Of a stretch of DNA of 52,023 nt, positions 20,056-39,115 are shown piece by piece. Position 1 is the stretch's first letter, and each line of letters opens with the position of its first letter. The notes beneath the pieces are model-generated. The model did no database searches. It had not been told where the DNA came from and was given only the letters and a program-made list of their open reading frames with translations. A program made the position numbers and the translations under genes. The stretch covers positions 1-52,023 of the forward strand of contig JAJYTX010000003.1 in assembly GCA_021792815.1 (NCBI GenBank), in the 5' to 3' direction. The DNA is from Pseudomonadota bacterium (lineage in GTDB: Bacteria > Pseudomonadota > Gammaproteobacteria > Steroidobacterales > Steroidobacteraceae).

Positions 20056-20448
20056 ATGAACAGCTTCATGCTCACCGCCATCGGCAATCTAGCGCGCGAT
20101 CCGGAGCTCACCGTCAAAGGTGAGACCACCTACGCCAGGCTCTGCCTGATCGGCAACGATTACGCGGGCCGGGACGAGGACGGCGCGGAGCGCGAGATCA
20201 CCACCAGCATCTGGTTCGTCGCCTTCGGCGCCCTCGGGGAGGCGATCGGGCGCACCGCGCGCAAGGGCGATCAGCTCATCCTCTCGGCGCAGGTGCGCGC
20301 GGACACCTGGATCGACAAGCAGGGCGAGCGCCGCTACGACCATTCCTTCATCGTGCAGGGGTTCAGGTTCGGTGCTCCCGGGAGGGCGCGGCGCGAGGAG
20401 TTCTCGGCCGCCGCCGAGCAGCCGCAACCGCTCGTTGCAGGCGCCTGA
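20056..20448 (+). CDS. ssb: Single-stranded DNA-binding protein of the conjugation module
   Basis: A 130-residue OB-fold protein: MNSFMLTAIGNLARDPELTV at the start, TSIWFVAFGALGEAIGRTARKGDQL in the middle and a short Ala/Gln-rich tail (EQPQPLVAGA). It is shorter than chromosomal SSB and lacks the acidic DDDIPF-type C-terminal tip used to recruit repair and replication proteins. This is common for SSB-like proteins of plasmids and integrative elements, which coat transferred single strands. It is the first gene of the virB strand, with a Shine-Dalgarno GGAGAC (20043-20048). A 5-bp hairpin (20019-20033, GTGCC/GGCAC) lies in the leader. Confidence 0.9.
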   Translation: MNSFMLTAIGNLARDPELTVKGETTYARLCLIGNDYAGRDEDGAEREITTSIWFVAFGALGEAIGRTARKGDQLILSAQVRADTWIDKQGERRYDHSFIVQGFRFGAPGRARREEFSAAAEQPQPLVAGA

Positions 20449-20523: not shown

Positions 20524-20829
20524 ATGATCCGCACGCTCACCGTCCTCGCCCGTCCCGCGCTGCTTGCCGCGGCGCTCGCGATCCTCCTCGCGCTGCCTCA
20601 ATCCGCTCTCGCCCAGGCCTCGCCGTTTCTCACCGGCGCCACCGCGCTCGAGAGCAACATTCTCGCCTGGCTCACGCCGATCGCCGTCATTCTCGTGATG
20701 GTGCTCGGCGCCATGGCGATGGCGAACCGCATCTCCTGGGGCTGGTGCATCGCGGCCATCCTCGGTATCGCGATCGCCTTCGGCGCGCCGCAGATCGTCT
20801 CCTGGGTGCGCGGCATGTTTGGGGTGTGA
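20524..20829 (+). CDS. virB2: T4SS major pilin, VirB2/TrbC family
   Basis: A 101-residue protein with a long signal segment (VLARPALLAAALAILLALPQSALAQA) and two membrane helices (ILAWLTPIAVILVMVLGAMAM and WGWCIAAILGIAIAFGAPQIV), the VirB2/TrbC layout. The processed pilin assembles into the conjugative pilus. It lies between ssb and virB3 in canonical order. Confidence 0.92.
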   Translation: MIRTLTVLARPALLAAALAILLALPQSALAQASPFLTGATALESNILAWLTPIAVILVMVLGAMAMANRISWGWCIAAILGIAIAFGAPQIVSWVRGMFGV

Positions 20830-20844
20830 GGGAGGGGCGGCATC

Positions 20845-21240
20845 ATGACTCGCGCATCTTTTGCGCTCACGGCCGATCCGCTGTTCGTCGGCGCGACCCG
20901 GCCGCCGATGCGCTGGGGGGTCACCTATTCGGCACTGCTCGCCAACCTGGTGTGCACGCTCGAGACGTTCCTTGTCACCCGCAACCTCCTGACGTTGCTC
21001 ATCAGCCTGCCCGTGCACGGCGTGAGCGCATTGCTCTGCGCACGGGATGCGCGCTTCTTCGATCTCGCGCTGCTCGCGGCGCGCACACGCCTGCCCGCGT
21101 GGCTCGCCAACCGGCGGCTGTGGCGGGCGGTGAGCTACTCCCCGTTGCCGATTGACCCGCCGGATGCGCGCGGGCGGCGGCGGGCGATTCCCCAACCGGT
21201 ATGGTGGGAGCGCCGTGCCCGGGAGATCTTCCCATGCTGA
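20845..21240 (+). CDS. virB3: T4SS inner-membrane protein VirB3
   Basis: A 131-residue protein with the VirB3 N-terminal hallmark: ADPLFVGATRPPMRWGVTYS, followed by two adjacent hydrophobic stretches (ALLANLVCTLETFLV, LLTLLISLPVHGVSALL). The tail is longer than usual, with about 55 basic residues after the membrane part. VirB3 sits in the inner-membrane complex with VirB4. It is preceded by GAGGGAGGGG as ribosome binding site, and its stop overlaps the virB4 start (ATGCTGA). Confidence 0.9.
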   Translation: MTRASFALTADPLFVGATRPPMRWGVTYSALLANLVCTLETFLVTRNLLTLLISLPVHGVSALLCARDARFFDLALLAARTRLPAWLANRRLWRAVSYSPLPIDPPDARGRRRAIPQPVWWERRAREIFPC

Positions 21241-23681
21241 GGTCGCTGCCTTCGGCGCTGCGCCGCGAGCTGACGGCGGAACGCTATATTCCCTACAGCG
21301 TGCACGTGGCTCGCGATGTCCTCAGGACCGTCTCCGGGGACTACCTGCAGGTATTTCGCCTCGGCGGGGCGAGTTTCGAGAGCGCCGATGCCGAGCAGAT
21401 CAACCAGTGGCACGAGCGACTCAACGTGCTGTGGCGCAATGTGGCCGATCCCGCCGTTGCGCTCTGGGCGCACACCGTGCGCCGGCGCGAAAGCGCGCCG
21501 CTGCCCGCCGCGGACGAGACCGGCTTCGCCGGCCGGCTCTACGGACACTACAGCCGGCGCTTGTCCACCGAGCGGCTCATGGTCAACGAGCTGTATCTGT
21601 CGGTGCTGTATCGACCGGCCGCGGGACGCGCGCGCCACCTGCTCTCGCGGGCGCTCTCGCGGGCGCAGCCGGCCGCCTCGCGCCTCGAGCTCACCGACGC
21701 GCTCGAGGCGTGCGAGCGCCTCGCCCAGACCCTGCGGGCCGCGCTCTCGCACTATGAGCCGCAGCCCCTTGGCTGCTACCGCGACTCGGGCCGTTGGTGC
21801 TCCTCGACGCTCGAGTTCCTGGGGCTGCTCGTCAACGGCGAGGCGCGTCGCGTGCCGCTGCCGCGCGGCCCGTTGAGTGCGGCGCTCGCCACCACAAGGC
21901 TGTACTTCGGCAACGAGGTCATCGAGTACCGTCCGGTCAGCGGGTCGCGCGCGGGCGCCGTGCTCGGCATCAAGGAGTATCCGACGCCGAGCGTGCCCGG
22001 CATGCTCGATGCGCTGCTCGCCGCGCCGTTTGCCTTCGTGCTCAGCCAGTCGTTTGCGTTCCTCACCAAGGCAAGCGGTCAGGCGCTGCTCACCCGACAG
22101 ATCAACCGCATGGCCAATGCGGGCGACTTCGCGGTCTCGCAGGCCGAGGCGCTCGCGGATGCGCTCGATGCGCTCACCAGCAACGAGTTCGTCATGGGTG
22201 ATCACCATCTGTCGCTGCAGGTGATCTGCGAGCTCGATTCGAGCGAGGCGGCCGGTCCTTCGGGGCGGCTGCGCTCGCTGGAGCAGCACCTGGCTCAGGC
22301 GCGCGCCATGCTTGCCGACACCGGAATGGCGGTGGCTCGGGAGGACCTCGCGCTGGAGGCGGCATTCTGGGCGCAGCTGCCCGGCAACTTCGCGTTCCGT
22401 CCACGCAAGGCGCCGATCACCTCGCGCAACTTCGCCGCGCTCGCTCCCTTTCACAACTATCCCTCGGGACGGGCCGCCGGCAACCATTGGGGAGATGCGC
22501 TCGCGCTGCTGCAGACGCGGGCCCATTCCGCCTATCATTTCTCGCTTCACGCCGCCTCGGCGGCCGGTGGCCGGACCGATACCGGGCATACCTTCATCTG
22601 CGGCCCGACGGGCTCGGGCAAGACGGTGCTGGTCGGCTTCCTGGTGGCGATGCTCGCGCGCTCGGGAGCCACGCAGGTGGTGCTCGACAAGGACCGCGGG
22701 CTCGAGATCCTCGTGCGCGCTCTGCGCGGGCAGTACCTGCGGTTGCGCAACGGTGAGCCCACCGGCTTCAATCCCCTGGCCCTGCCCGCAGGTCCCGCAC
22801 ACCTCGAGTTCCTTCGCGACTGGCTGCAGCTGCTCGCGCGCCCCGGCGGGGGACGCTCGCTCTCGGTGCGCGAGCGCGAGGATCTCGAGCAGGCGCTGCG
22901 CGGGGTGCTGGCGCTCGCGCCGGAGGCGCGGCGGCTATCGAGGCTGCTCGAGTTCCTCGATCCGACCGATCCGGAGGGCGTCCATGCGCGCCTCGCGCCC
23001 TGGTGTGAGGAGGCGAGCGGGGAGTATGCCTGGGTGTTCGACAATCCCGCCGACTCGGTGGTGCGGCGCTTGTACGGCGCACAGGTTCTCGGCTTTGATG
23101 TCACGGACTTTCTCGACAACCCGCGCTGCCGCGCGCCCATCACGCTTTACCTGTTTCACCTGGTGCGCCAGATGCTCGATGGGAGGCGCCTCGTGTGCTG
23201 GATGGATGAGTTTTGGCGCCTGCTCGAGGACCCGGCGTTCGAGCGCTTCGCCAAGGAGGGGCCGAAGACATGGCGCAAGTTGAACGGCGTGATGGCGCTT
23301 GCCACTCAGAGCGCGAGCGATGTGCTGCAGAGCCGCATCAGCCGCACGATCATCGAGCAGACCCCGACCAAGATCTTCTTTCCGAACGCTGCCGCCTCGG
23401 AGGAGGAGTACCTGCAGGGCCTCGGCCTGACGCATCGCGAGCTCGCCCTCATCCGCGATGAGCTCGATCCCGGCGAGCACGCCTTTCTCGTCAAGCAGGG
23501 CCATCAGAGCGTGGTCTGCCGGCTCGACCTGGCAGGCCTCGGACGCGAGGTGCAGGTCATCTCGGCCCGCGCCGCCGGACTCGAGCGGCTGGAGCGTCTG
23601 ATGCGCGAGCGTGGCGCCGATCCGGATGCCTGGCTCGATGAGTTCCTGGCGCCCGGGGGCTCGGGCCCGGGCGGTGCGTGA
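21234..23681 (+). CDS. virB4: T4SS ATPase VirB4
   Basis: An 815-residue ATPase. The N-terminal domain (VSGDYLQVFRLGGASFESAD, then WAHTVRRRE) is the CagE/TrbE/VirB family domain. The C-terminal motor has Walker A GPTGSGKT at residues 457-464 and Walker B VCWMDEFWRLLED around D658-E659, followed by ALATQSASDVLQSRI and NAAASEEEYLQ. VirB4 drives pilus biogenesis and substrate translocation at the inner membrane. ATG 21234 is chosen because it overlaps the virB3 stop and gives the expected N-terminus. Confidence 0.96.
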   Translation: MLRSLPSALRRELTAERYIPYSVHVARDVLRTVSGDYLQVFRLGGASFESADAEQINQWHERLNVLWRNVADPAVALWAHTVRRRESAPLPAADETGFAGRLYGHYSRRLSTERLMVNELYLSVLYRPAAGRARHLLSRALSRAQPAASRLELTDALEACERLAQTLRAALSHYEPQPLGCYRDSGRWCSSTLEFLGLLVNGEARRVPLPRGPLSAALATTRLYFGNEVIEYRPVSGSRAGAVLGIKEYPTPSVPGMLDALLAAPFAFVLSQSFAFLTKASGQALLTRQINRMANAGDFAVSQAEALADALDALTSNEFVMGDHHLSLQVICELDSSEAAGPSGRLRSLEQHLAQARAMLADTGMAVAREDLALEAAFWAQLPGNFAFRPRKAPITSRNFAALAPFHNYPSGRAAGNHWGDALALLQTRAHSAYHFSLHAASAAGGRTDTGHTFICGPTGSGKTVLVGFLVAMLARSGATQVVLDKDRGLEILVRALRGQYLRLRNGEPTGFNPLALPAGPAHLEFLRDWLQLLARPGGGRSLSVREREDLEQALRGVLALAPEARRLSRLLEFLDPTDPEGVHARLAPWCEEASGEYAWVFDNPADSVVRRLYGAQVLGFDVTDFLDNPRCRAPITLYLFHLVRQMLDGRRLVCWMDEFWRLLEDPAFERFAKEGPKTWRKLNGVMALATQSASDVLQSRISRTIIEQTPTKIFFPNAAASEEEYLQGLGLTHRELALIRDELDPGEHAFLVKQGHQSVVCRLDLAGLGREVQVISARAAGLERLERLMRERGADPDAWLDEFLAPGGSGPGGA

Positions 23682-23697
23682 AGCGGGAGGTCATGTC

Positions 23698-24402
23698 ATG
23701 CGCAAGACTGCTCTTTTCTCCATCATTCTTCTGCCGTCCCTGGTGACCGCGATCGCGCACGCACAGTGGGCGGTGATCGATGTCGCGGCGGTTACGCGTC
23801 TCACCACCGAGGTGCGCACGCTGGAACAGGCCCTCACCACCGAGCGCCAGACCCTCGCCGGCACCCGTGAGCAGCTTGCCGCCATGACCGGCAACCGGGG
23901 CATGGGAGGGTTGCTCGCCAACGTGCGGCGCAACTACCTGCCCACCGACTGGGCGCAGCTCTCCGCGGCGCTCGGCGGCACGAGCGCATCTTATGGGACG
24001 CTCGCGGCCGGTGTGCGGGAGGCGCTCGCCGAGGACGCCGTGCTCAGCCCGGCGCAGCTCGGGGCGCTCTCACAGCCCGCTCGCGCGCAGATCCTCTCGG
24101 ATCGGCGCACGGCGGCGCTGCTGCAGGCGATCTCCCGCGAAGCGCTCGCGAACTCGAGCGGCCGGTTCGTCCTGCTGCGCCAGCTGATCGACACGATCGG
24201 CCGGGCGCACGACCAGAAGGCGATCCTTGACCTCACCGCGCGCATCGTCGCCGAGCAGGCCATGCTCGAGAACGAGCAGACCAAGCTGCGCGTGCTGTTC
24301 GCCACGGCCGAGGCCGAGCGCTGGGCCGATGAGGAGCGCGCGCATGAGCGCGCCATCGCCGCACAGGGGGAGTTCGCGACGCGTTTCCAGCCGACACCCT
24401 GA
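23698..24402 (+). CDS. virB5: T4SS minor pilus subunit VirB5
   Basis: A 234-residue exported protein with signal peptide MRKTALFSIILLPSLVTAIA. The mature part opens QWAVIDVAAVTRLTTEVRTL, typical of VirB5/TrbJ, followed by long helices (TLEQALTTERQTLAGTREQ) and a central NYLPTDWAQLSAALGG segment. VirB5 caps the pilus tip. It lies between virB4 (16 bp) and virB6 (18 bp). Sequence conservation of this family is low, so position contributes to the call. Confidence 0.87.
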   Translation: MRKTALFSIILLPSLVTAIAHAQWAVIDVAAVTRLTTEVRTLEQALTTERQTLAGTREQLAAMTGNRGMGGLLANVRRNYLPTDWAQLSAALGGTSASYGTLAAGVREALAEDAVLSPAQLGALSQPARAQILSDRRTAALLQAISREALANSSGRFVLLRQLIDTIGRAHDQKAILDLTARIVAEQAMLENEQTKLRVLFATAEAERWADEERAHERAIAAQGEFATRFQPTP

Positions 24403-24420
24403 GGGGGCGGTGAGGACGGC

Positions 24421-25437
24421 ATGGGCTTCTTTCAAACCTTCTGGACCTGGCTCAACGGCGAGCTTGCGAGCTACATCGGCTCGAGCACCGCCCGGGTCGC
24501 CTCGGCGATCGAGCCCGCGGCGATCGCCTTGGGCGCGGTGTACGTCATGGCGTGGGGCTACCTGATGCTCACCGGGCGTATCGAGGAGCCCGTCGCCGCG
24601 GGCTTGAAGCGCATCGTGACGCTCGCCGTGGTGCTCGGCGTGGGCCTGCACCTTTGGTTGTACAACACGCTGCTCGTCGACACCTTCTACCGGGCCCCGG
24701 CCGAGCTCGCCGCGCAGGTGGTGGGCGCGCGCGATCCGATCCGCACCCTGGATGCGATCTGGAACCAGGGAGGGGAGGTGGCAAGCCTCCTGTACGACAA
24801 GAGCCACTGGTGGAGCAACTGGGGTTTTGGCATCGCAGGCGTCACGGTCTGGCTGCTCGTGGGGCTGCTGTGCGTCTACACCATGTTTCTGCTGGCGCTC
24901 TCGAGCGTCGCGCTCTCGGTGCTGCTCGCCCTGGGGCCGTTGTTCATCGTCCTGTTTCTGTTCGATGCCACCCGACGGCTTTTCGAGGCCTGGATCGCCC
25001 AGCTCGCCAACTACGCGCTCATCACGATCCTGACGGTGATGGTTGCCGCGCTGATGCTGCACCTGGTGGCCTCCTATGCGCGCCAGACCGCAGCCCTCGG
25101 CAGCGCGCTCGACACCGTGGACGCGCTCGATCTGCTGCTGGTGACGGCGCTGGTGTTCCTGTTCATGCGCCAGGTCATGCCGATCGCCGCCGGGCTTGCC
25201 GGCGGCGTGGCGCTCACGACATTCGGGCTGCCCGGCCGCACCCTCGGCTGGGGCGCGCGCAAGGTCACGTTCGGCGCGACGAAGGTCATCGCGCCGGGTG
25301 TGGCGGTAGTCGGAGGAGCTCTCCTCTCGTCCGCGCGCGAGCGCTCTCGGAAGGCGCGTGCGCGCGCCGAGGAGCAACGGTCGCAGCAGGGTGTGCCGTG
25401 GCAGGGGACTGCGGCGGCCGGGGATTCGTGGGACTGA
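24421..25437 (+). CDS. virB6: T4SS polytopic channel protein VirB6
   Basis: A 338-residue inner-membrane protein with several hydrophobic segments (AIALGAVYVMAWGYLML, IVTLAVVLGVGLHLWLY, VTVWLLVGLLCVYTMFLLAL, LLALGPLFIVLFLFD, LITILTVMVAALMLHLVAS, LLLVTALVFLFMRQ) and the VirB6/TrbL family segment LGPLFIVLFLFDATRRLFEA. The basic, Gln/Arg-rich tail is cytoplasmic. VirB6 forms the inner-membrane channel for DNA transfer. The gene lies between virB5 and a VirB7-like lipoprotein. Confidence 0.93.
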   Translation: MGFFQTFWTWLNGELASYIGSSTARVASAIEPAAIALGAVYVMAWGYLMLTGRIEEPVAAGLKRIVTLAVVLGVGLHLWLYNTLLVDTFYRAPAELAAQVVGARDPIRTLDAIWNQGGEVASLLYDKSHWWSNWGFGIAGVTVWLLVGLLCVYTMFLLALSSVALSVLLALGPLFIVLFLFDATRRLFEAWIAQLANYALITILTVMVAALMLHLVASYARQTAALGSALDTVDALDLLLVTALVFLFMRQVMPIAAGLAGGVALTTFGLPGRTLGWGARKVTFGATKVIAPGVAVVGGALLSSARERSRKARARAEEQRSQQGVPWQGTAAAGDSWD

Positions 25438-25455
25438 TCTCAACGAGGTGTCAAC

Positions 25456-25641
25456 ATGAGACCATGGTTCGTCCTCGCGGCGCTCCTGGCGCTGTCCTCC
25501 TGCGCCGCCGGTCCGCGCTGCGATACGCATCTTACGCCCATCAACGCCTCGGTGTTGCGCCGGGCCGCGGCATCGGGCGCCGCACCCCTCCTGCCGGGAC
25601 GGCACGCCTCGCGGCGCGGCGGGCGCGGAGGCCGATCGTGA
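25456..25641 (+). CDS. virB7: VirB7-like T4SS lipoprotein
   Basis: A 61-residue protein with MRPWFVLAALLALSSCAAG, a signal peptide with lipobox LSSC, and a short mature part (CAAGPRCDTHLTPINAS) followed by an Arg/Gly-rich end. The second cysteine could form a disulfide with VirB9, as in Agrobacterium. It stabilises the outer-membrane core complex. The stop overlaps the GTG start of virB8 (GTGA). Confidence 0.8.
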   Translation: MRPWFVLAALLALSSCAAGPRCDTHLTPINASVLRRAAASGAAPLLPGRHASRRGGRGGRS

Positions 25642-26357
25642 GCGCCGATGCACCGCTTGAGACCTACCTGCAAGAGGCCGTCTCCTGGGATGAGGATCGC
25701 GTGGCCCGGGCGCTGCGCGCAGCGCGGACCGCCTGGCGGGTGGCCGCCGCGGCCTGCCTGTGCGTGGCGGCGCTCGCCGTGGCGCTCGCGCTGCTGATGC
25801 CGCTGAAGCGGGTGGAGCCGTTTCTGATCCGCGTCGACAGCCGCTCCGGGATGGTCGATGTGGTGCCCCTGTATACCGGGCAGGAGACATTCGGTCGAGC
25901 GGTCGCGCGTTATTTTCTGGCGCACTACATCGCTGTCTGCGAGCGCTTCGACTTCGCGATGGCGGCGAGCGATTACGAGCAGTGCGGCGCATTCAACTCC
26001 GCACGGCTGAACGCCGCGCTCTACGCCCGCTGGAGCCGCTCCAACCCCCGCTCGCCGCTCAATACGCACAGGGACGGCAGCACGGTGTCGGTGCGTATCG
26101 AGTCGGTGAGCTTCCTCGCGAGCACCCCCGGCACGGGCAATCTTGCCCAGGTGCGCTTCGAGCGCCGGGTGAGGCAGGCGGATGGGGCGCGCGGGCCCGC
26201 CAGGCACTGGATCGCGACGCTGCAATACACCTTCGCTCACCCCCCGAGCGATGCGCGCACGCGTCGCTGGAACCCGCTTGGCTTCGAGGTGTTGGATCTC
26301 GAGCTCGAGCCGGAGGTGCTGGGTCACGCGCGGCCCGCGGGAAGGGAGCGCCCATGA
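25638..26357 (+). CDS. virB8: T4SS bitopic inner-membrane protein VirB8
   Basis: A 239-residue protein with GTG start overlapping virB7. It has a short cytoplasmic lead (ETYLQEAVSWDEDRVARALR), one membrane helix (VAAAACLCVAALAVALALLM), then the periplasmic VirB8 domain with VEPFLIRVDSRSGMVDVVPL and the ARYFLAHYIAVCERFD helix. VirB8 is an assembly factor linking inner- and outer-membrane parts. Its stop overlaps the virB9 start (ATGA). Confidence 0.93.
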   Translation: MSADAPLETYLQEAVSWDEDRVARALRAARTAWRVAAAACLCVAALAVALALLMPLKRVEPFLIRVDSRSGMVDVVPLYTGQETFGRAVARYFLAHYIAVCERFDFAMAASDYEQCGAFNSARLNAALYARWSRSNPRSPLNTHRDGSTVSVRIESVSFLASTPGTGNLAQVRFERRVRQADGARGPARHWIATLQYTFAHPPSDARTRRWNPLGFEVLDLELEPEVLGHARPAGRERP

Positions 26358-27280
26358 GTGTCTCGAGAGCGGCGCGCGTGCGGGTGTGGCCGCTGGGACT
26401 TCTCTGCGTCCTCGCCGGCGCAGCCGCCGTGCGGGCGGCGGGACGGACGCCCCCCGTGAGGCCGGCGCCGAAAGCCTCCGTGCTCACGGCGCGGCCTGCA
26501 CCGCCCGATTCGCGGATTCGCGTGGTGATCTACAGCGCCAATCGCATCTATCGCCTGCAAGGCTATGCCGGCTACCAGATCGATGTGCAGTTTGCGCCCG
26601 GAGAGCATTTCGTGGGGGCCGGTGTGGGCGATGCCAAGGGCGTCACGCTCGCCTCGGCGGCCAATCACCTGTTCATCAAACCGAGGGCGGCGCACGTGGC
26701 CACCAATCTGACCGTTCTCACCAACCGGCGCACCTACCTGTTCGATTACACCGCGAGCCCCGGCCCTCCCGCTCACAGTGATCCGGACGTCATTTATGCT
26801 CTGCGTTTCGAATATCCGCTCACGGTGGTGCGAGCGGGTGCGGCCTCCCGACGGCGCGCCCGGATCGCAAGCGATCTGCGGGCGGCCGAGCGTGATGCGC
26901 CGCGCAACTACGACTACTGGTATTGTGGAGCGCCGGCCTTGAAGCCGCGGGCCGTGTGGGACGACGGCGTGCAGACCTACCTTCTCTTCGGCCCCCGCGC
27001 CGAGCTGCCCGCCGTCTTCGTGCGCAACGCCGATGGCAGCGAAGCGCTGGTGAATTTCGACATGCGCGGCGCCGACATGGTCATTCAACGGGTGGCGCGG
27101 CGTTTCGTGCTGCGGCGCGGCAAGCTCACGGGGTGCATCGTCAACCGAGGGTTCACCGGCTCCGGCCGGCGGCTGACGTCCGGGACGCTCTCGCCGAAAG
27201 TCTGGCGCGTGACGCGCCGCCCCGTACCGCAGGGGACGGGCGGCCGGTCCCGTGTCGTCCCGCGCGGAGTGCGACCGTGA
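26354..27280 (+). CDS. virB9: T4SS outer-membrane complex protein VirB9
   Basis: A 308-residue exported protein with signal segment LGLLCVLAGAAAVRAA. The N-terminal VirB9 domain has RIRVVIYSANRIYRLQGYAG, IDVQFAPGEHFVGAGVGDAK and HLFIKPRA, with ATNLTVLTNRRTYLFDY. The C-terminal VirB10-interacting domain has NYDYWYCGA, AVWDDGVQTYLLF and FVRNADGSEALVNF. The spacing and order are canonical. It overlaps both neighbours by four bases, so translation is coupled across virB7-virB10. Confidence 0.96.
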   Translation: MSVSRAARVRVWPLGLLCVLAGAAAVRAAGRTPPVRPAPKASVLTARPAPPDSRIRVVIYSANRIYRLQGYAGYQIDVQFAPGEHFVGAGVGDAKGVTLASAANHLFIKPRAAHVATNLTVLTNRRTYLFDYTASPGPPAHSDPDVIYALRFEYPLTVVRAGAASRRRARIASDLRAAERDAPRNYDYWYCGAPALKPRAVWDDGVQTYLLFGPRAELPAVFVRNADGSEALVNFDMRGADMVIQRVARRFVLRRGKLTGCIVNRGFTGSGRRLTSGTLSPKVWRVTRRPVPQGTGGRSRVVPRGVRP

Positions 27281-28539
27281 TCCGCTTCCCCTGGTCCGGC
27301 CGGCGGCCGCCCTCCCGGGGTGAAGGACACGAGAGACCGGCACAGTCCTCCGGCGGCGCTCCGGTGCAGGGGCTGATCCGGGGCGAGCGGGGGCACACCG
27401 TGGCGAGCCGCGTACGTTCGCTGCAGTCGCAGCTCAACGGCGTGTTGGCGGCGGCGCTCGCGGTCGGCGTAGGGGTGGCCATGCTGGCCTGGTACTACGC
27501 CGAGGCGCTGCATCGGCCCGGGCAGAGCGCTCATACGATCGCGGCGAGGCAGGTTGCTGAAGCACGCATGAGGCTTCCTCCGCTCGGTCCCATCGTCTTC
27601 CCCCATTCAGCGACGGTGTTGCATCCGGCTCGCGCCGCCTCTCCGGCGCCGGTCACGGTGCAACCGGCGCTGCCGCTGTCGCCTGCGCAGCCGGCAATGC
27701 CCCGGCGCACACGAATCGGCGCAGTGTCCGCAGCCGGCGCGCGCCGGCGCCGCGCGCTCGCCCGCCGCCTCTCCGGCGCGGTGTTCACCGGTGCGGGCAA
27801 TGGGCCGGGCGCCTCCAGGGGCGGCTTCGAGTCGGGCGGGATTGCCAGAGGCCGCCCGGTGAGCTCAGCGTATTCCGGCTACCCCGTCCCGCCGGGTCCG
27901 CAGGCTTTCGGCCGTGAGACCCTCGGCTCGCTGCTGCGTCCCACCGTGCTGCCCGCCACACGCGCCGAGCTGCTGCCGCAGCAGCGCCTGCTCCTTCCCA
28001 AGGGCGCCTTCATCGACTGCACGCTGGAGACGGCGATCGATTCGACGCTTCCGGGCATGACGACCTGCATCACGGCCACCGACACCTTCAGTGCCGACGG
28101 CACGGTGGTGCTGCTCGAGCGCGGCACGCAGCTCATCGGGGAAACCCGCGGCCAGGTGCGCCAGGGCATGGCTCGGGTGTTCGTGATCTGGACCGAGGCC
28201 CGCACGCCCTCGGGAGTCGTCGTCCGGCTCGACTCCCCGGGCACCGATGCATTGGGCCGCTCCGGGCTGACCGGCACCGTCAACCGGCATTTCTGGCAGC
28301 GTTTCGGGGCCGCATTGCTGGTGTCCACCATCGATGCGGGGGTGCAATCGAGTCTCGAGTCCGGCAGCGGGACGGTGGTGATCGATCCGACAACGTCAGA
28401 GAATGTCATGACGGAGGCGCTTCGCGGGACCGTGGACATCCCTCCGACCATCACGGTGCCGAACGGTGCGCGCATACAGGTGCTGGTGGCGCGGGACGTC
28501 GATTTCAGGTCGGTGTATGAGCTGGTCCCGCGCTCCTGA
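27277..28539 (+). CDS. virB10: T4SS core-complex protein VirB10
   Basis: A 420-residue protein with GTG start overlapping virB9. The cytoplasmic lead is followed by one membrane helix (VLAAALAVGVGVAMLAWYY), a Pro/Ala-rich periplasmic linker, and the TrbI/VirB10 beta-barrel domain: LLPKGAFIDCTLETAIDST, DGTVVLLERGTQLIGETRG, RVFVIWTEARTPSGVVVRLD, and a hydrophobic antenna-like helix around RFGAALLVSTIDAGVQS. VirB10 spans both membranes and senses ATP use. The last codons overlap virB11 by 23 bp. Confidence 0.96.
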   Translation: MIRFPWSGRRPPSRGEGHERPAQSSGGAPVQGLIRGERGHTVASRVRSLQSQLNGVLAAALAVGVGVAMLAWYYAEALHRPGQSAHTIAARQVAEARMRLPPLGPIVFPHSATVLHPARAASPAPVTVQPALPLSPAQPAMPRRTRIGAVSAAGARRRRALARRLSGAVFTGAGNGPGASRGGFESGGIARGRPVSSAYSGYPVPPGPQAFGRETLGSLLRPTVLPATRAELLPQQRLLLPKGAFIDCTLETAIDSTLPGMTTCITATDTFSADGTVVLLERGTQLIGETRGQVRQGMARVFVIWTEARTPSGVVVRLDSPGTDALGRSGLTGTVNRHFWQRFGAALLVSTIDAGVQSSLESGSGTVVIDPTTSENVMTEALRGTVDIPPTITVPNGARIQVLVARDVDFRSVYELVPRS

Positions 28540-29641
28540 GGAGACACTCCCGGCCCACGGGGCGGGGCGGGATCCGGGCACGGCCTCGGCGCTCGAGTTG
28601 ACCGTGCGCGTGCTGCGACCGCTGCTCGAGCGCCCCGGCGTGACCGAGCTGTGCATCAACCGGCCCGGTGAGGTGTTTCTGGAGGGCGGCAGCGGCTGGT
28701 GCCGCGAGCCGCTCCCGGGGGCGGATTTCGAGTGGTGCCGGCGCCTCGCGCGCCTGGTGGCCAACTATACCCGACAGCGCATCGACGAAGTGGCGCCGCT
28801 CCTCTCCGGCGCGCTGCCGAGCGGGGAGCGGGTGCAGATCGCATTGCCGCCGGCGACGATCCGGGGCTGCGTGGCCATCAGCATCCGCCGTCCCGCGCAG
28901 CTGGTGTGGTCGGTCGGGGAGCTGTCCGCGCGCGGCATCTTTCACGAGACGCGCCCGGCAGGGGAGGCGCCCCGGGAGGTCGAGCGGGAGCTGCGCTCGC
29001 TGCTCGCGGTCCGTCAGTACGAGGCGTTCATGCGCCTGGCGGTGCGCAGCCGCTGCAACATCGTGGTGTCAGGTCCCACCGGGTCGGGCAAGACGACCTG
29101 GACCAAGGCGCTGATCCGGGAGATCCCTGCGGATGAGCGCCTGATCACCATCGAGGATGCCCCGGAGCTCATCCTCGACGCCCATCCCAATCACGTGCGG
29201 CTCTTCTACAGCAAGGACGACCAGGGTCTTGCGAGAGTGACCCCGAGGCAGCTCCTCGAGGCCTCCCTCAGGATGAAGCCCGACCGCATCCTGCTCGCGG
29301 AGCTGCGCGCCGAGGAGGCCTTTGACTACCTGCGCAACGTCAACTCGGGGCATCCCGGCTCGATCACCAGCGTGCATGCCTCGAGCGCGCGGCTCGCCTT
29401 CGAGCAATTGACTTTGCTCGTCAAGCAAAGTCCGGCGGGCCGCCAGCTCGCCCGCCGCGACATCCGCAGCCTCCTTCACCTGTTGATCGACGTGGTCATT
29501 CAGTGCGGACTCGAGCGGCACCGGCGCTGCATCAAGGAGATCTGGTACCGGCCCGAGGGTGGGGGGGCGGCCGCGAGGAAGCTCCCCTCACGCGCCAGGG
29601 TGAGGCGGGATGCGGCGCACAGCGGGGTGTTGGTACGATGA
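28517..29641 (+). CDS. virB11: T4SS traffic ATPase VirB11
   Basis: A 374-residue hexameric ATPase of the PulE/VirB11 family. The N-terminal domain has RPLLERPGVTELCINRPGEV. Walker A GPTGSGKTT starts at residue 186; the Asp box follows as TIEDAPELIL, Walker B-like DRILLAELRAEEAFDYL and the His box GHPGSITSVHASSA. It switches the machine between pilus assembly and DNA transfer. ATG 28517 lies inside virB10 and is chosen because homology starts shortly afterwards. The stop overlaps the next start (ATGA). Confidence 0.96.
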   Translation: MSWSRAPEETLPAHGAGRDPGTASALELTVRVLRPLLERPGVTELCINRPGEVFLEGGSGWCREPLPGADFEWCRRLARLVANYTRQRIDEVAPLLSGALPSGERVQIALPPATIRGCVAISIRRPAQLVWSVGELSARGIFHETRPAGEAPREVERELRSLLAVRQYEAFMRLAVRSRCNIVVSGPTGSGKTTWTKALIREIPADERLITIEDAPELILDAHPNHVRLFYSKDDQGLARVTPRQLLEASLRMKPDRILLAELRAEEAFDYLRNVNSGHPGSITSVHASSARLAFEQLTLLVKQSPAGRQLARRDIRSLLHLLIDVVIQCGLERHRRCIKEIWYRPEGGGAAARKLPSRARVRRDAAHSGVLVR

Positions 29642-31413
29642 TCGGCGCACAGACGCTCCTCGATCTGACGCACGGCCTGTCGGGTCTCGCCTTCGCTTAC
29701 GGCAGCGTGCAGGCGCCGATGTGGGTCGCCATGGCGCGCGGGCGCGCAGCGCTCGAGCGGTGGCTCGCCTCCCCGCTGCTCGCAGCTCCCTTGCTGCTCG
29801 CCGGGGGGATCGGCATGTCGTGGGTGGCGCCTGCGCTGCGCGCGGCGGACCTCGGCACCACTCTCCCGTATGCCCTCTGCAGCGCCGGACTGTGCGCGGC
29901 ATTGGGATATGCCGGCGGACGCGTGCTCGCCTCGGCCCCACCGGTGGCCCGGGAGCAGCACGTGCGCGGCGCAGTCGTGCGCGAGCGCGCTGCGGCCGCG
30001 CCTGCCGCTGCGCAACGCATCCCCGAGATGGATCTTGCCCGCCGGCGGGGCGCTGCGGCCGAGGTCCGCCGCACCGGTCTTACGCTCGCGGGTGTGGCGG
30101 TGCCGGTGGCGGACGAGACCAAGCACTTCAAGCTGATCGGTGCCACCGGGGCGGGCAAGAGCACGGCCATCCGCGAGCTGCTCGCCGGGGCGCTCGCCCG
30201 CGGCGATCGGGCGGTGATCGCCGATCCCGATGCCGGGTATCTCGAGCGCTTCTGGCAGGCGCAGCGCGGCGATGTCGTGCTGAGCCCCTTCGAGCGCGGT
30301 GCGCGCCGGTGGGATCTGTTCGGCGAGATCACCGATCCCTACGACATCGATCAGCTCGCGCTTGCGCTCATTCCGGACCATGAGGGCTCCGATCGCAGCT
30401 GGCGCGGCTATGCCCGGACGTTGTTCGCCGCGGTCACCGGTCAGGCCCGCGAGGCGGGGGTATCGGATGTGGGGGAGCTCTATGACCTTCTGGTGACGGC
30501 CGAGCGCGGGGAGCTCAAGGTGCTCGTCGGCGGCACGCCCGCCCAGCCGTTCTTCGATGAGCACAACGAGCGGATGCTCGACTCCATCCGCTCGGTGCTG
30601 AGCTCGGCGGTGGGAGCGCTGCGCCACGTGGCTCGCCAGGACGCCGAGCCGCTCTCCGTCAGGGGCTGGGTGCAAGCGGGTGAAGGCGCGCTCTTCATCC
30701 CCTATCGCGCCGGACAGATCGCCTCGCTGCGCTCGATGATCTCGGGCTGGATGCGGCTTGCGATCTTCGAGGCCATGAGCGGGCCCGAGGGCGGGCGGGC
30801 GCTCTGGTTCGTGGCCGATGAGCTCGATGCGCTCGGAGCGATCGACGGTCTGAAGGATGCGCTCGCGCGGCTGCGCAAGTTCGGCGGGCGCTGCGTGCTC
30901 GGGTTCCAGTCGATCGCCCAGGTGTCCTCCACCTACGGAGCAGGGGAGGCTCAGACCATCGTGGAGAACTGCGGTAACACGCTCATCCTGCGCTGCTCGG
31001 CCAGCGAGCACGGCGGCACTTCGCGGTTCGCATCCCGCCTGATCGGGGAGCGGGAGGTGGTGCGCCTCACGCGCTCGAGGTCCAAGCGCCCGGGGGACTG
31101 GCGTGCCTCGGTCACCGATTCCGAGCACCGGCAGGTCGAGCCCGCGGTGATGGCCTCCGAAATCGAGCGGCTCGCCGACCTCGCCGGGTATCTCAAACTC
31201 GCCTCCTCTGCCGATTGGCGGCGGGTGGCGCTGCGTGCGCCCGCGCGCGAGGCGCCCGCTGCATCCGCCGCCCGCGCCCGGCCGGCGGCGATGGCGGCGC
31301 AGCGCTCGGCGCTTGCCGCGCAGGCGGGGGGCGTGTGCGAGGGGCCGGGCGGGATGTTGGAGCCTGAGGCGCGACAGGCGATGCGCGGCCGCGGGGGGTG
31401 GGAGCATGGGTGA
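29638..31413 (+). CDS. Coupling protein, VirD4/TraD type, copy 1
   Basis: A 591-residue ATPase of the TraD-type DNA-binding family that links the relaxosome to the T4SS. Residues 40-100 contain two hydrophobic segments (ASPLLAAPLLLAGGIGMSW; LPYALCSAGLCAALGYAGG). Walker A GATGAGKST begins at residue 168; Walker B is LWFVADELDALG; the following ARLRKFGGRCVLGFQSIAQ motif is typical of TraD. The C-terminal 60 residues are Ala/Arg-rich. A second coupling ATPase is encoded at 31918-33309, which is unusual. The start overlaps the virB11 stop. Confidence 0.93.
   Translation: MIGAQTLLDLTHGLSGLAFAYGSVQAPMWVAMARGRAALERWLASPLLAAPLLLAGGIGMSWVAPALRAADLGTTLPYALCSAGLCAALGYAGGRVLASAPPVAREQHVRGAVVRERAAAAPAAAQRIPEMDLARRRGAAAEVRRTGLTLAGVAVPVADETKHFKLIGATGAGKSTAIRELLAGALARGDRAVIADPDAGYLERFWQAQRGDVVLSPFERGARRWDLFGEITDPYDIDQLALALIPDHEGSDRSWRGYARTLFAAVTGQAREAGVSDVGELYDLLVTAERGELKVLVGGTPAQPFFDEHNERMLDSIRSVLSSAVGALRHVARQDAEPLSVRGWVQAGEGALFIPYRAGQIASLRSMISGWMRLAIFEAMSGPEGGRALWFVADELDALGAIDGLKDALARLRKFGGRCVLGFQSIAQVSSTYGAGEAQTIVENCGNTLILRCSASEHGGTSRFASRLIGEREVVRLTRSRSKRPGDWRASVTDSEHRQVEPAVMASEIERLADLAGYLKLASSADWRRVALRAPAREAPAASAARARPAAMAAQRSALAAQAGGVCEGPGGMLEPEARQAMRGRGGWEHG
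30850..30914 (+). repeat. 65-bp exact repeat, copy 1 (coupling ATPase motor)
   Basis: Identical base for base with 32887-32951, 2037 bp downstream. It encodes the LKDALARLRKFGGRC segment and part of the following GFQSI motif. The flanking coding sequence is also very similar but not identical. See the finding on possible gene conversion. Confidence 0.85.
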
Positions 31414-31915
31414 GGCGGCGGAGGCGGATCTTGCCATGCGGGCGGGGCTGCTGATGGAGGCGGCCCAGGCCCAGCAGCGGCTCGGCGAGGACTGTCTCGA
31501 GCGGCTGCAGGCGCATCTGCGCGATCTCGATACCGTCGTGCGCGATGAGATCCGCCATACGCTGACCGAGGCGATCGCGGGCCTGGTCGAGGAGACGACG
31601 CAGGCGGCACAGGCGCTGCGGCGCTTGAAACATGCGGCGGACCTGCGGGTGTTGTCCTGGACCGTGGCGGTCACCCTCCTCAGCGCCGCCCTGGGCGCGG
31701 GAGCGATGTGGCGGCTGCTGCCCTCACAGGGTGAGATCGCGGCCCTGCGGGCGCACCGCAACGCCCTTGCCGCCGACATTTCCCGTCTCGAGCAATACGG
31801 CGGACGGGTGCAGCTGCGAAGGTGCGGCGCGCGCGGCAGGCTCTGCGTACGGGTCGATCGCAAGGGGCCTGCATACGGGACGGATGGCGATTTTCTTCTG
31901 GTGAAGGGGCGCTGA
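31406..31915 (+). CDS. Membrane coiled-coil protein between the two coupling ATPases
   Basis: A 169-residue protein; ATG 31406 overlaps the end of copy 1 by 8 bp. Residues 1-75 are helical and charged (AAQAQQRLGEDCLERLQAHL, VRDEIRHTLTEAIAGLVEE), suggesting a cytoplasmic coiled coil. One membrane helix follows (SWTVAVTLLSAALGAGAMWRL). The remainder is a short second coiled coil (EIAALRAHRNALAADISRLE) and a Cys-containing periplasmic end (RRCGARGRLCVRVDRKG). It is not a recognised family. Its topology recalls MobB-type accessory proteins that tie relaxase to the membrane, but this is inference from layout only. Confidence 0.75.
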   Translation: MGEAAEADLAMRAGLLMEAAQAQQRLGEDCLERLQAHLRDLDTVVRDEIRHTLTEAIAGLVEETTQAAQALRRLKHAADLRVLSWTVAVTLLSAALGAGAMWRLLPSQGEIAALRAHRNALAADISRLEQYGGRVQLRRCGARGRLCVRVDRKGPAYGTDGDFLLVKGR

Positions 31916-31917
31916 TC

Positions 31918-33309
31918 GTGGCTCCGTGGGTGCACCACTTGAGTTCATCTGCCGTGCGCACAGGCCTCGCGGGGCTGCTCGCGCTGCTGTTGCCGCTCGT
32001 GCTGCTGCTCGCACGGCGCTCGGGGCAGTCGGATGAGCACCGGCGCGGCACCCGTATCATCGATGGGCGCCGGGACCAGCGGCGCGGCGCTCGCCTTCAG
32101 CGCCGGGGGGCGCCTGTCGTGACGCTGGCCGGCATCGCCATCGCTCCCTCGGAGGAAACCAAGCACTTCAAGCTGATCGGGACCACCGGGACCGGCAAGT
32201 CCACCGCCATCGGAGAGCTGCTCGGCGCGGCGCTCGCGCGCGGCGACCGTGCCGTCATCGCCGATCCGCACGGCGGCTACCGGGCGCGTTTCTTCAGTCC
32301 CTTGCGCGGCGATGTCCTGCTCAACCCCTTCGAGCCGGCCTCGGTGAGGTGGGATCCGTTCGCCGAGATTCTTGCGCCGGGGGATGCCGAGCAGCTCGCC
32401 GGGAGCCTCGTTCCCTCAACCGAGGATGCCTCGGGGCGCGAGTGGCGCGGCTACGCGCGCACCTTTCTCACCGCGGTGCTCAGGCGCTGTCACGAGGGGC
32501 GCCGCGATGCCGCCGAGCTGTGGCGGCTCATCGCCGTGGCCGACAGCGCCGAGCTGCGCTCCATCGTGTGCGCAACTCCGGCCCAGCCGTTCCTCGAGCC
32601 GGAGAACGCCCGCATGTTCGGCTCCATCCGCTCGGTGGCCGCCTCGAGCGCCGCGGCGCTCGAGCACGTGGGCTCTCAGCGCTCGCGCTCCTTCTCCGTC
32701 CGCAATTGGGTGAGGGAGGGGCGCGGGGTGTTGTTTCTGCCTTATCAGGCCGGACAGATCGCGGCGCTGCGCGCCGTCATTGCCGCCTGGGTGCGCCTCG
32801 CGGTCTTCGAGACCATGAGCGTGGAGGGCGACCGGCGGCTGTGGTTCGTCGTCGATGAGCTCGATGCGCTCGGGGCGATCGATGGCCTGAAGGATGCGCT
32901 CGCGCGGCTGCGCAAGTTCGGCGGGCGCTGCGTGCTCGGGTTCCAGTCGATTGCGCAGGTGTCCTCCACCTACGGGGCAGGGCAGGCCCAGACCATCGTG
33001 GAGAACTGCGGCAACACGCTGATCCTCAGATGCTCGGCGAGCGAGCGCGGCGGCACCGCCGAGTTCGCCTCGCGCCTGATCGGCGAGCACCAGGTGGTGC
33101 GCCGCTTGAGCTCGAGGGGTCGAGACGGGATGGGCGGGCTCGGCCAGGGCACGCGCGGGGCCCGCCGCTCGCTGCACGTGAGCGAGCAGCAGGTGATCGA
33201 GGCGGCCGTGCTGGCCTCCCAGATCGAGCAGTTGCCCGACTTCACCGGTTATCTGAAGACGGCTGGATCGCCAGCCTGGCTCAACGTGCGCTTCGGGTGC
33301 GCGCCCTGA
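31918..33309 (+). CDS. Coupling protein, VirD4/TraD type, copy 2
   Basis: A 463-residue paralog of 29638-31413, with GTG start 2 bp after the preceding gene. It has one N-terminal membrane helix (LAGLLALLLPLVLLLARR) and lacks the C-terminal extension of copy 1. Walker A GTTGTGKST begins at residue 88 and Walker B is LWFVVDELDALG, so the ATPase looks intact. The first 30 motor residues match copy 1 closely (ETKHFKLIG), the middle diverges to roughly half identity, and the region from DELDALG to RLIGE is nearly identical. Whether it works with copy 1, replaces it for another substrate, or is redundant is unknown. Confidence 0.92.
   Translation: MAPWVHHLSSSAVRTGLAGLLALLLPLVLLLARRSGQSDEHRRGTRIIDGRRDQRRGARLQRRGAPVVTLAGIAIAPSEETKHFKLIGTTGTGKSTAIGELLGAALARGDRAVIADPHGGYRARFFSPLRGDVLLNPFEPASVRWDPFAEILAPGDAEQLAGSLVPSTEDASGREWRGYARTFLTAVLRRCHEGRRDAAELWRLIAVADSAELRSIVCATPAQPFLEPENARMFGSIRSVAASSAAALEHVGSQRSRSFSVRNWVREGRGVLFLPYQAGQIAALRAVIAAWVRLAVFETMSVEGDRRLWFVVDELDALGAIDGLKDALARLRKFGGRCVLGFQSIAQVSSTYGAGQAQTIVENCGNTLILRCSASERGGTAEFASRLIGEHQVVRRLSSRGRDGMGGLGQGTRGARRSLHVSEQQVIEAAVLASQIEQLPDFTGYLKTAGSPAWLNVRFGCAP
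32887..32951 (+). repeat. 65-bp exact repeat, copy 2 (coupling ATPase motor)
   Basis: Exact match to 30850-30914. Differences resume at 32952 (T instead of C), but near identity continues for about 100 bases more. Confidence 0.85.
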
Positions 33310-33345: not shown

Positions 33346-34533
33346 ATGGCCATCTTCCACATGCAGATCAAGACCGTGACGCGTGCGCAGGGCCGCAATG
33401 CGCTGGCGTCGGCGGCGTATCGGGCCGGAGAGTCGATCCGCGACGAGCGCACCGGGGTGGTCTACGACCACCGCAAGCGCCAGGACGTGCTGCACAAGGA
33501 GATCCTGCTGCCCTCGAGACTCGAGGGTGCCGCCGGTGTCGGGATGGACTGGGCCCGCGACCGTTCGTCGTTATGGCACGCCGCGGAGCGCTCGGAGCGT
33601 CAGCGCAACTCGCGGGTGGCCCGAGAGTACATGGTGGCGCTGCCCGCGGAGCTCTCGGGCGGCGAGCAAGTGGCTTTGGCGAGAGCATTCTCTCGGGAGA
33701 TCGCGGACCGCTACCACGTGGCGGTGGATCTGGCGGTGCACGCGCCGCGGCCGTACGGTGACCCGCGCAACTTTCACGCACATCTGCTGACCACCACGCG
33801 CGAAGTCACGCCGGAGGGGCTCGGTGCCAAGACCGGCCTCGACATGCAGGGCACGGTGCGGGCCGAGCTGGGCCTGCCCCCCTCGAGGCAACAGTTCAAG
33901 GCGCTGCGCGAGCGCTGGGCGGAGCTCGCCAACGAAGCGCTGCAGCACGCGCAGGTCCCCGAGCGCATCGATCACCGCAGCCTCGCGGAGCGGGGGATCG
34001 ATCGCGAGCCGCGTCCGAATCTGCCGGTCGCCGCGGTTGCCGCGCTGAGAAGAGGCGAACGGAGCGAGCTCGCCGAGCGGCTCTTTGAGCGATACCACGA
34101 GAGACTCGCGCGGCGGCAGGCGGCACAGGAGCCGGGTGCAGGGGAGCGGGGCGCTGCCCCGCGCGCTCTTGAGGAACGGACGGCCCCCGTGCCGCCGCAG
34201 GGGCCGAGGGCCGCTGCGGCGCTGCCGGGGACGGAAGAGCAAGCGCCCGGCCCGGCGCCGCGGGACTCCGAAGCGCGCCGCCAACAGGCGGTCAGGGACT
34301 GGCTCGGCTATCGTGCCGCGCAGGGCCGGCCGGTCGGTGCGGCGGAGGAGCGGCAAGCGCGCCAGGGCGCCGAGGATCTTCGCCGCCAGGCCATCGAGGC
34401 CTGGCGCAGCCTCAGGGCAAAGGAGGGGGAAAGTCGCGGCGGTGGGCTCACAGCGGGCCGCGACCGGCAGGCCCAGCCGGAGGGCTCGTTGGGACAGCGC
34501 TCCCGCGGCCCAGACCCCGACCACTCCCTCTGA
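33346..34533 (+). CDS. mobA: MobA/MobL-type relaxase (MOBQ-like)
   Basis: A 395-residue relaxase. The N-terminus MAIFHMQIKTVTRAQGRNAL runs into SAAYRAGES, with Tyr25 as likely nicking residue, the same position as in RSF1010/R1162 MobA. The metal-binding histidines are in DPRNFHAHLL (His144, His146), with another in AVDLAVHAPRP. From about residue 250 the protein is Glu/Arg/Ala-rich and low in complexity, and it lacks a helicase or primase domain. It cuts oriT and stays bound to the strand for transfer. It follows coupling copy 2 by 36 bp; the ribosome binding site is weak. Confidence 0.92.
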   Translation: MAIFHMQIKTVTRAQGRNALASAAYRAGESIRDERTGVVYDHRKRQDVLHKEILLPSRLEGAAGVGMDWARDRSSLWHAAERSERQRNSRVAREYMVALPAELSGGEQVALARAFSREIADRYHVAVDLAVHAPRPYGDPRNFHAHLLTTTREVTPEGLGAKTGLDMQGTVRAELGLPPSRQQFKALRERWAELANEALQHAQVPERIDHRSLAERGIDREPRPNLPVAAVAALRRGERSELAERLFERYHERLARRQAAQEPGAGERGAAPRALEERTAPVPPQGPRAAAALPGTEEQAPGPAPRDSEARRQQAVRDWLGYRAAQGRPVGAAEERQARQGAEDLRRQAIEAWRSLRAKEGESRGGGLTAGRDRQAQPEGSLGQRSRGPDPDHSL

Positions 34534-34567
34534 TTGCGGCGCAAGGGAGGGCTTCGCGCCTGCGCCG

Positions 34568-35272
34568 GTGAGCTTTGCGAGCGGCTATGCCTATGCCCCC
34601 TTCGGGGAGGGGCCCCTTTGCGAAGCGGCGCGCGAGATGTGCGCACGCCTGAAGGAGGCCGATGCGCGCTGGTTGGCTCGCTTCGCCGTGCAGGTGTGGC
34701 GGCAGAAGACGGCCAACGGGCATTTCGCCGCGCTCTTCGGCCGGGACGTGGTGTTGGTGCCCGTGCCGGGAAGCCGCCCGCGAACCTGCGTGCCCTGGGT
34801 GGGGGAGCGGCTGGCCTGGTGCCTGAAGGACATGGGCCTCGCCTGCGCCGTGCGGCCCTGCCTGCGCCGCCGCCATCCCGTCAGCAAATCGGCGTTTGCG
34901 GCGGCGGGGGAGCGCCCTTCGGTGCTCGAGCACTACGCGTCGTTTGCCGTGGAGCGCGAGGAGGCGAGTCTCGGCGGGCTCGCCCAAGGGAGGCGGATGA
35001 GGCCGGCAGAGGGCTCACTCCGCGGTCTCGACGGGCGCCGGCTCCGGGGCACGGGCGCGGCTCCTCGCCTGGTGCTCATCGACGATGTCGTCACGCGCGG
35101 GCGCACCCTGCTTGCCGCCGCGGCGCGGCTTCGCGAGGCGTTTCCGGGCTGTGAGATCCGCGCCTTCGCCCTCATGCGCACCCTCGGCCGCGGGGAGCTG
35201 CCCTGGCGCAATCCCGATCCCTGCGAGGGGGAGGTGAGATGGCTTGAGGGTGATGCGCGCCGGATCCCGTAG
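34568..35272 (+). CDS. ComF-like phosphoribosyltransferase domain protein at the end of the module
   Basis: A protein of about 234 residues. It contains DVVLVPVPGSRPRTCVPW and the PRPP-binding loop LVLIDDVVTRGRTLLAAAARL, which define the type I PRTase fold of the ComF/amidophosphoribosyltransferase group. It lacks the zinc-ribbon N-terminus of ComF. GTG 34568 is the best start because no ATG is in frame near it; GGGAGG at 34545-34550 is a rather distant ribosome binding site. It lies 34 bp after the relaxase on the same strand. ComF acts in natural transformation; a role in handling transferred single-stranded DNA is possible, but the function is not known. Confidence 0.78.
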   Translation: MSFASGYAYAPFGEGPLCEAAREMCARLKEADARWLARFAVQVWRQKTANGHFAALFGRDVVLVPVPGSRPRTCVPWVGERLAWCLKDMGLACAVRPCLRRRHPVSKSAFAAAGERPSVLEHYASFAVEREEASLGGLAQGRRMRPAEGSLRGLDGRRLRGTGAAPRLVLIDDVVTRGRTLLAAAARLREAFPGCEIRAFALMRTLGRGELPWRNPDPCEGEVRWLEGDARRIP

Positions 35273-35297
35273 CGACCCCGGTCATGCGCGCACCACC

Positions 35298-35327
35298 GCG
35301 CCGTCCGCCGCTTCCGGCGGCGGGCGC
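35298..35327. terminator. Hairpin between convergent genes
   Basis: GCGCC-GT-CCGCCG-CTTC-CGGCGG-CG-GGCGC is an 11-bp stem with a 2x2 internal loop and a CTTC tetraloop, located between the phosphoribosyltransferase stop and the convergent PAP2 phosphatase stop. There is no T-tract, so it may be a Rho-aided or bidirectional transcript end. Confidence 0.4.
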
Positions 35328-35347
35328 CTCGAGTCCTGTGCCCGGGC

Positions 35348-36244: not shown

Positions 36245-36388
36245 CCGGCGGATTGTAGGGGATTCGGCGTCCCGGAACAGGAGGCGCTGTGAATAATTTT
36301 CCGGGTCTTACGCGCCTTTCCCGTATCGGCAACGAGCTGGCGCAGATCTGTTGGTGCGGTACCCCCTGTGCGGGCGGGGAGCGGATCG

Positions 36389-37654: not shown

Positions 37655-37806
37655 GCACAGTCCCTGATGAGCGGTGGGTCATTGAACGTGCGGGACTGGG
37701 CGCCGTCAAGACCGCATGCCGGCCCGCGCCCCTGCGGGGCGGGCGTTCGACGCTTGCGCGGCTCACCCTTGCGCAGTTTCGACCCCCGTCGCAGACTTGT
37801 CCCACC

Positions 37807-39085: not shown

Positions 39086-39115
39086 TCTTCGGCCGCAGCG
39101 GCGGGCCCGGTCCGC

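Follow-up and report, generated by a model that had tools for sequence, protein, structure and literature searches.

Conjugation systems and other type IV channels are usually described with one coupling motor, a hexameric ATPase that recruits the substrate and whose N-terminal membrane domain usually consists of two helices, and how such a channel picks one substrate over another has yet to be settled for type IV secretion. Other systems with two coupling proteins may exist, for example TcpA and TcpB of pCW3. Here we describe a stretch of 52,023 nucleotides from a member of the Steroidobacteraceae (the window), in which a virB cluster carries two coupling ATPases, TraD1 and TraD2, on either side of a small membrane protein, Mid. 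The closest described proteins are TrwB of plasmid R388 and TraD, with which both ATPases share, by sequence, the ATPase and all-alpha regions as well as a location near the relaxase gene. The locus differs from these in having two paralogues per cluster and a TraD2 with a reduced membrane region, and both of its ATPases fall short of the F-type TraD cut-off of NCBIfam.

Two TrwB/TraD proteins per replicon have been reported for IncA/IncC plasmids, in 120 of about 620 plasmids with a coupling protein (PMC9709138); that tally is per plasmid, where several relaxases or transfer systems are possible, and the portion of the study considered here describes no tandem locus with a common membrane protein. 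Coupling ATPases with partner proteins are also known, as for DotM/DotN with DotL and CagF with Cag-beta (portions of PMC12857230), and Mid might be likened to these by the idea of its role, not by its sequence, with the difference that two ATPases are present here. In a search of the literature outside subscription journals, we recognised no description of a tandem TraD1–Mid–TraD2 arrangement.

Layout and chromosomal setting of the cluster

The cluster spans virB2 through virB11, then traD1–mid–traD2, then mobQ, all on the forward strand. Genes virB2 to virB10 form one operon-like run (20524..28539), in which virB8, virB9 and virB10 were named through their position and matches among relatives, and a 61-residue ORF at 25456–25641 encodes a VirB7-like lipoprotein, both the VirB7 likeness and the lipobox being read by eye. 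Next come virB11 (28520..29641, with a start codon of our choice), whose product matches TIGR02788 over the cut-off; traD1 (29638..31413, ATG start, 591 residues), with a long N-terminal membrane region; mid (31406..31915, ATG start, 169 residues), encoding a single-pass membrane protein with a helical first part and a C-terminal two-cysteine domain; and traD2 (31918..33309, GTG start, 463 residues), with a short N-terminus and one hydrophobic segment. The 395-residue product of mobQ (33346..34533) is a MobA/MobL (MOBQ) relaxase, matching PF03389 as well as NF041496 (207.5 bits against a cut-off of 200). An earlier note on this DNA had described two intact TraD/VirD4-type ATPases flanking a presumed coiled-coil membrane protein, the three genes being packed without gaps between virB11 and the relaxase gene; the coordinates and the Walker A and B motifs bear this out, as do the overlaps of 4 nt (virB11/traD1) and 8 nt (traD1/mid) and the gap of 2 nt between mid and traD2, beyond which 36 nt separate traD2 from mobQ.

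At the upstream end of the cluster lies an ORF (20056..20448, forward strand) that we take to be ssb-like and that recurs in the upstream stretches of relatives (9 of the 11 stretches L166–L176, and also L012 and L080). The downstream end is marked by an ORF at 34085..35272 on the same strand, presumably ComF-like from a motif, with its true start unset and with no Pfam matches. It opens a flank (34085–41784) whose genes recur among 50 loci, window included: ComF-like in 22, PAP2 in 19, a transporter in 13, the BlaI/BlaR region (a BlaI-like gene in the window) in 11, MFS in 9 and EAL in 8, with the window's order kept where several co-occur. The window's upstream flank genes are common to four genomes (G189, G070, G105 and G084) and its downstream ones to three of these (G189, G070 and G084). 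Six others checked on both sides (G174, G111, G143, G026, G100 and G045) have in common with it the end genes, ssb-like and, in four, ComF-like; apart from these there was a weak match to a manC-like gene and an inverted match to PAP2. Because flank genes on both sides recur in G189, G070 and G084, the cluster looks to have been long resident at one chromosomal place in the window's lineage, and to lie in other places elsewhere. The ten flank-region proteins scanned included no integrase, and the repeats around the cluster formed no clear pair of element ends. Further downstream, at 41935–44119, a tRNA-Val gene precedes a gene for an AAA_14/DUF4143 ATPase and a short ORF that partly matches HipA_C, a region that might mark a former site of insertion.

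The two ATPases and the protein between them

TraD1 was assigned to the TrwB/TraD type from Pfam and NCBIfam matches, from its sequence match to the solved TrwB structure (PDB 1e9r, E = 1e-51) and from trees. Both ATPases match TrwB_AAD_bind (PF10412) over the cut-off, at E = 2e-94 for TraD1 and 5e-94 for TraD2, both match TraG-D_C, and both are over the cut-off for the TrwB-type DNA-binding/all-alpha region (PF10412, PF12696); against F-type TraD (TIGR02759) they reach 242 and 226 bits, below the cut-off of 521. Walker A reads GATGAGKS in the window's TraD1 and GTTGTGKS in its TraD2, and Walker B is complete in both. Across relatives, Walker A is intact in all rows with the region sequenced (34/34 for TraD1 and 41/41 for TraD2), the other 5 of the 39 TraD1 rows being contig-end pieces of 266–349 residues left out of this count, and Walker B is present in 39/39 and 41/41 rows. 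A plasmid search with TraD1 gave 5084 match places in the best 5000 records, so that at most 84 of those records hold a second place, adjacent or otherwise; a second coupling-ATPase copy is thus unusual among the best 5000 plasmid records matching TraD1. A phage protein search with TraD1 and a plasmid DNA search with traD1, mid and traD2 gave no match.

A quick tree built on 103 coupling-protein cores (taken from 118 T4CP rows, the rest being fragments or split pieces) places the copies before and after Mid in separate groups, with support of 86 and 98. The TraD1 and TraD2 groups persist in a tree of 143 rows, drawn from 168 after dropping fragments, split pieces and the long-branch row L045, as well as in a careful tree built from 61 selected rows, including two pieces, where their support is 99/91 and 98/95, respectively. 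Since the copies group separately in these trees, their split predates the divergence of the sampled lineages. Values of dN/dS of 0.06–0.16 for TraD1 and TraD2 over six ortholog pairs (Mid, 0.28 in one pair) indicate that both copies are under purifying selection. The earlier note had named two ways in which its reading might fail, a recent duplication seen only in this strain and an ATPase absent or degenerate in all relatives; the former is ruled out by the separate tree groups and the latter by the motifs, the dN/dS values and the trees.

Within this old divergence, the window's TraD1 and TraD2 are 91% identical over some 89 residues surrounding Walker B. The blocks of DNA that encode these residues (30787..31080 in traD1 and 32824..33117 in traD2, both on the forward strand) are 87% identical, and third codon positions agree at 78% in the block versus 51% in the part before it. 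Across 36 loci, the two copies of one locus are 75–96% identical in the protein sequence of this block, and the best third-position match is the within-locus pair in 10 of the 36. This identity and third-position likeness point to local gene conversion as the probable cause in some lineages, including the window's, and not to a recent duplication of the whole gene.

Mid has a single hydrophobic region at about residues 77–106, and its AlphaFold2 model (mean pLDDT 81.5, pTM 0.32) consists of a long helix at 2–104, a second helix at 108–130 and a strand pair. The two cysteines of the C-terminal domain are conserved in 27/27 aligned rows, and the family profile extends into that domain in 59 of 62 Mid matches. 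The three exceptions are a weak match (L116) and two loci, L039 and L040, in which Mid ends after the membrane helix, the genes run mobQ–mid–traD2 and virB genes are absent from the fetched stretch. The description of Mid in the earlier note as unrecognised holds as far as named families go, with no Pfam family at E = 0.01, a sole NCBIfam match far below its cut-off and a fold search against the PDB that gave 38 matches at E up to 10 and none at E ≤ 0.001; it does not hold for relatives, of which 658 were found at E ≤ 0.01 among 1734 candidates. Among the matches listed, these come from metagenome-assembled bacteria, whose titles are in many cases Gammaproteobacteria or Proteobacteria and in some Steroidobacteraceae.

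A plasmid protein search with Mid returned 53 records (41 from Acinetobacter and 7 from Pseudomonas), of which 51 are typed mobilizable. In the four records opened (pA85-1b, pA22J2, pGLE121P1 and pACMV4), the relatives (L001 2954–3454, L002 1558–2193, L003 16494–17099 and L004 1591–2232) are all annotated hypothetical, carry the same two-cysteine C-terminal motif and lie directly downstream of a MobA/MobL, MobQ or TraA relaxase gene, with a 4-nt overlap or a 32-nt gap. Comparison of the Mid family profile with these four genes (probability 99.5, E = 2e-22) identifies these hypothetical genes beside MobQ-type relaxases on mobilizable plasmids as members of the Mid family. The plasmids differ from the window in that the stretches shown, for which the gene tables are incomplete, list no full-length coupling protein or virB gene; one of the four records has a protein of about 138 residues named TraD.

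Hydropathy of the window proteins gives two weak hydrophobic regions in TraD1 and one in TraD2. Since start codons are not fixed, we measured the N-terminus in relatives as the residues from the preceding stop to Walker A; 22 of the 41 TraD2 frames have fewer than 143 residues there, 143 being the minimum among 34 TraD1 frames. The last 85 residues before Walker A contain a hydrophobic segment in 35/41 TraD2 versus 4/34 TraD1 frames, and over 160-residue windows TraD2 has one such segment in 33/41 frames and two in 2/41, compared with one in 19/34 and two in 14/34 for TraD1. The TraD2-type frames of L039 and L040, where Mid lacks the outer domain, have 155 and 146 residues before Walker A. Because the loss of the outer domain in Mid coincides with a long TraD2-type N-terminus, this domain exchange, seen in two loci of one clade, suggests a role for Mid in completing TraD2's membrane part.

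Distribution of Mid and the loci without an adjoining TraD1

The surroundings of relatives were fetched and their genes typed with profiles, which gave 62 loci matching Mid, the window among them. The three-gene order that the earlier note had described from this stretch alone, TraD1–Mid–TraD2, is present in 44 of the 62, several with one copy cut by a contig end. The order is virB11–Mid–TraD in nine and mobQ–Mid–TraD in three (one with a broken TraD); two more have TraD, then Mid, then a contig end, and the remaining four are cut or have no adjoining coupling protein. A scan of species genomes gave 19 Mid loci. Mid is present in 55 of 200 genomes of one family and in 2 of 369 genomes drawn from the class, one of which is the centre genome itself and the other a match at E = 8e-4.

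Six loci (L041, L044, L046, L121, L129 and L163) might have formed a separate class of VirB–TraD1 clusters without Mid, a candidate that we rejected, as all of them are truncated by a contig end within or close to TraD1. In five cases, the matching remainder lies on another contig of the same genome (L022, L018, L096, L130 and L079), and the genome of L041 already holds a full cluster (L020). On a 3.47 Mb contig of genome G044, locus L136 (7424–18999) has virB4–11, then a TraD1-group gene interrupted by a stop, then a MobQ gene; Mid and a second ATPase were looked for there and not found. Seven further loci (L134, L144, L145, L146, L153, L154 and L158) carry MobQ and coupling-protein genes with no virB genes in the fetched stretch, and are probably mobilizable elements with their own coupling protein.

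Seven of the nine genomes without TraD1 beside Mid hold a TraD1-group gene elsewhere. It is full-length in five (G012, G157, G177, G059 and G075), cut by a contig end in G008 and represented in G042 by two contig-end fragments, of which the first alone was placed in the tree. Of the other two genomes, G150 has Mid–TraD2 and no second coupling-ATPase copy found in the genome, and in G160 the placed copies all belong to another group, one end fragment being unplaced (short extra fragments from G174, G167, G195, G010, G084 and G160 were left unplaced in the trees). The relocated copies form one group (support 100 in the 143-row tree and 100/100 in the 61-row tree), which also includes copies from G020, a genome whose Mid locus runs into a contig end, and from two genomes in which no Mid was found, G176 and G181. 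Pairwise dN/dS within the group is 0.07–0.28, with many pairs saturated at silent sites. Among the matches listed, with the six best candidates taken per genome, a copy of this group was placed in none of the 46 genomes with TraD1 in place.

Fisher's test on TraD1 beside Mid versus elsewhere gives 2e-7 and ignores relatedness; with relatedness taken into account, the same pattern rests on four independent pairs, of which 3.7 on average are as expected (p = 0.125). With relatedness allowed for, the tendency of a missing TraD1 beside Mid to go with a copy elsewhere is thus only suggestive. One VirB4 was found in each of G012, G059, G042 and G075, which leaves the separate TraD1 a single known channel in these genomes; in G008, G157 and G177 there is more than one VirB4 match. 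Some relocated copies may belong to other mobilizable elements, because the group occurs in G176 and G181, which lack a detected Mid, and because the relocated gene of G177 (L118) adjoins another MobQ gene.

Partner correlations and competing explanations

Coupling-protein and relaxase trees are often congruent, according to two reviews (PMC7434980, PMC12857230). We compared partners by rank correlation of pairwise protein distances in 29 loci with all genes, an earlier permutation run having used 24 loci. The partial correlation with Mid is 0.59 for TraD2 (controlled for TraD1) versus 0.03 for TraD1 (controlled for TraD2), and that with MobQ is 0.54 for TraD1 versus 0.16 for TraD2; both contrasts are stable when a random third of the loci is dropped and when thinning of close relatives leaves 22 loci. 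For VirB11 the difference is weaker (0.45 for TraD1 versus 0.27 for TraD2), with overlapping subset ranges, and the 24-locus permutation run agrees with the 29-locus contrasts. MobQ, therefore, tracks TraD1 although mobQ adjoins traD2, distance correlations being an indirect measure, and we set aside TraD2 as the coupling protein matched to the relaxase, a role that the adjoining mobQ might imply.

Two intact, old paralogues are thus kept in a conserved order and under purifying selection, with separate partner correlations and with TraD1 unlinked in some genomes. We favour, at a probability of roughly one half, the reading that the two anciently duplicated ATPases feed one VirB channel as separate coupling units. 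TraD1, the one matched to MobQ, would load relaxase–DNA as a conventional type IV coupling protein, and TraD2 would work with Mid, whose membrane helix and outer domain may complement the shortened membrane part of TraD2; this pair would tether a second substrate or hold the relaxosome at the membrane. We infer that each ATPase forms homohexamers and that TraD2 and Mid pair physically, and the substrates named are likewise those we would expect. A related account goes further, in that TraD2 would have given up part of its membrane domain, which Mid now supplies, and a conventional TraD1 ring for relaxase–DNA and a TraD2/Mid ring for another substrate would serve the one VirB channel, both being needed even where TraD1 is encoded elsewhere; we hold this as tentative and somewhat doubtful.

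The earlier note had offered two mechanisms, two docking platforms, which might serve DNA and protein as their substrates, or a mixed hexamer. The docking platforms fit better because TraD1 can sit elsewhere in the genome and because the ATPases track different partners. A single ring at the channel base, composed of both ATPases and bridged by Mid, would agree with the tandem genes of most Mid loci, with the likeness of the Walker-B blocks within loci, which show local gene conversion in the window's case and in certain relatives, and with a TraD1–TraD2 distance correlation of 0.53 that persists after control for virB10/virB11 (p = 0.001, 24 loci). We nonetheless consider it quite unlikely, given that TraD1 is unlinked in seven of the nine genomes without it beside Mid and was not found in one, that partners correlate separately, and that the ATPases of type IV systems assemble as homohexamers according to the portion of a review considered here (PMC12857230).

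Two observations would suit a history in which mid–traD2–mobQ was captured from a mobilizable element that encoded a coupling protein of its own and was joined to a VirB–TraD1 system, leaving the coupling proteins partly redundant today: the position of Mid relatives beside MobQ-type relaxases on plasmids typed mobilizable, and the basal branching in the TraD2 group of the mobQ–mid–traD2 loci L039 and L040, whose fetched stretches contain no virB genes. Purifying selection on both copies in 6/6 pairs and the tracking of TraD1, not TraD2, by MobQ make this unlikely as a full account; it explains origin, and as such is compatible with two coupling units on one channel. Plain redundancy or dosage, with two copies doing the same job and no division of labour, would be in keeping with the TraD2-only genome G150 and with G044, which has a TraD1-group copy alone, its frame interrupted by a stop, but the old split, the differing N-termini and partner correlations, and the tendency of TraD1 to persist elsewhere when absent beside Mid render it very unlikely.

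Whichever account applies, one group of environmental bacteria has indeed kept an old, conserved coupling-ATPase pair together with a membrane protein that they share. Diverged motors that correlate with different partners on a single channel make substrate choice testable, and the natural variants without one motor, or with a motor elsewhere, offer a further handle on it. Beyond this group, the Mid family provides context and a testable role for the small hypothetical genes that lie beside MobQ-type relaxases on mobilizable plasmids.
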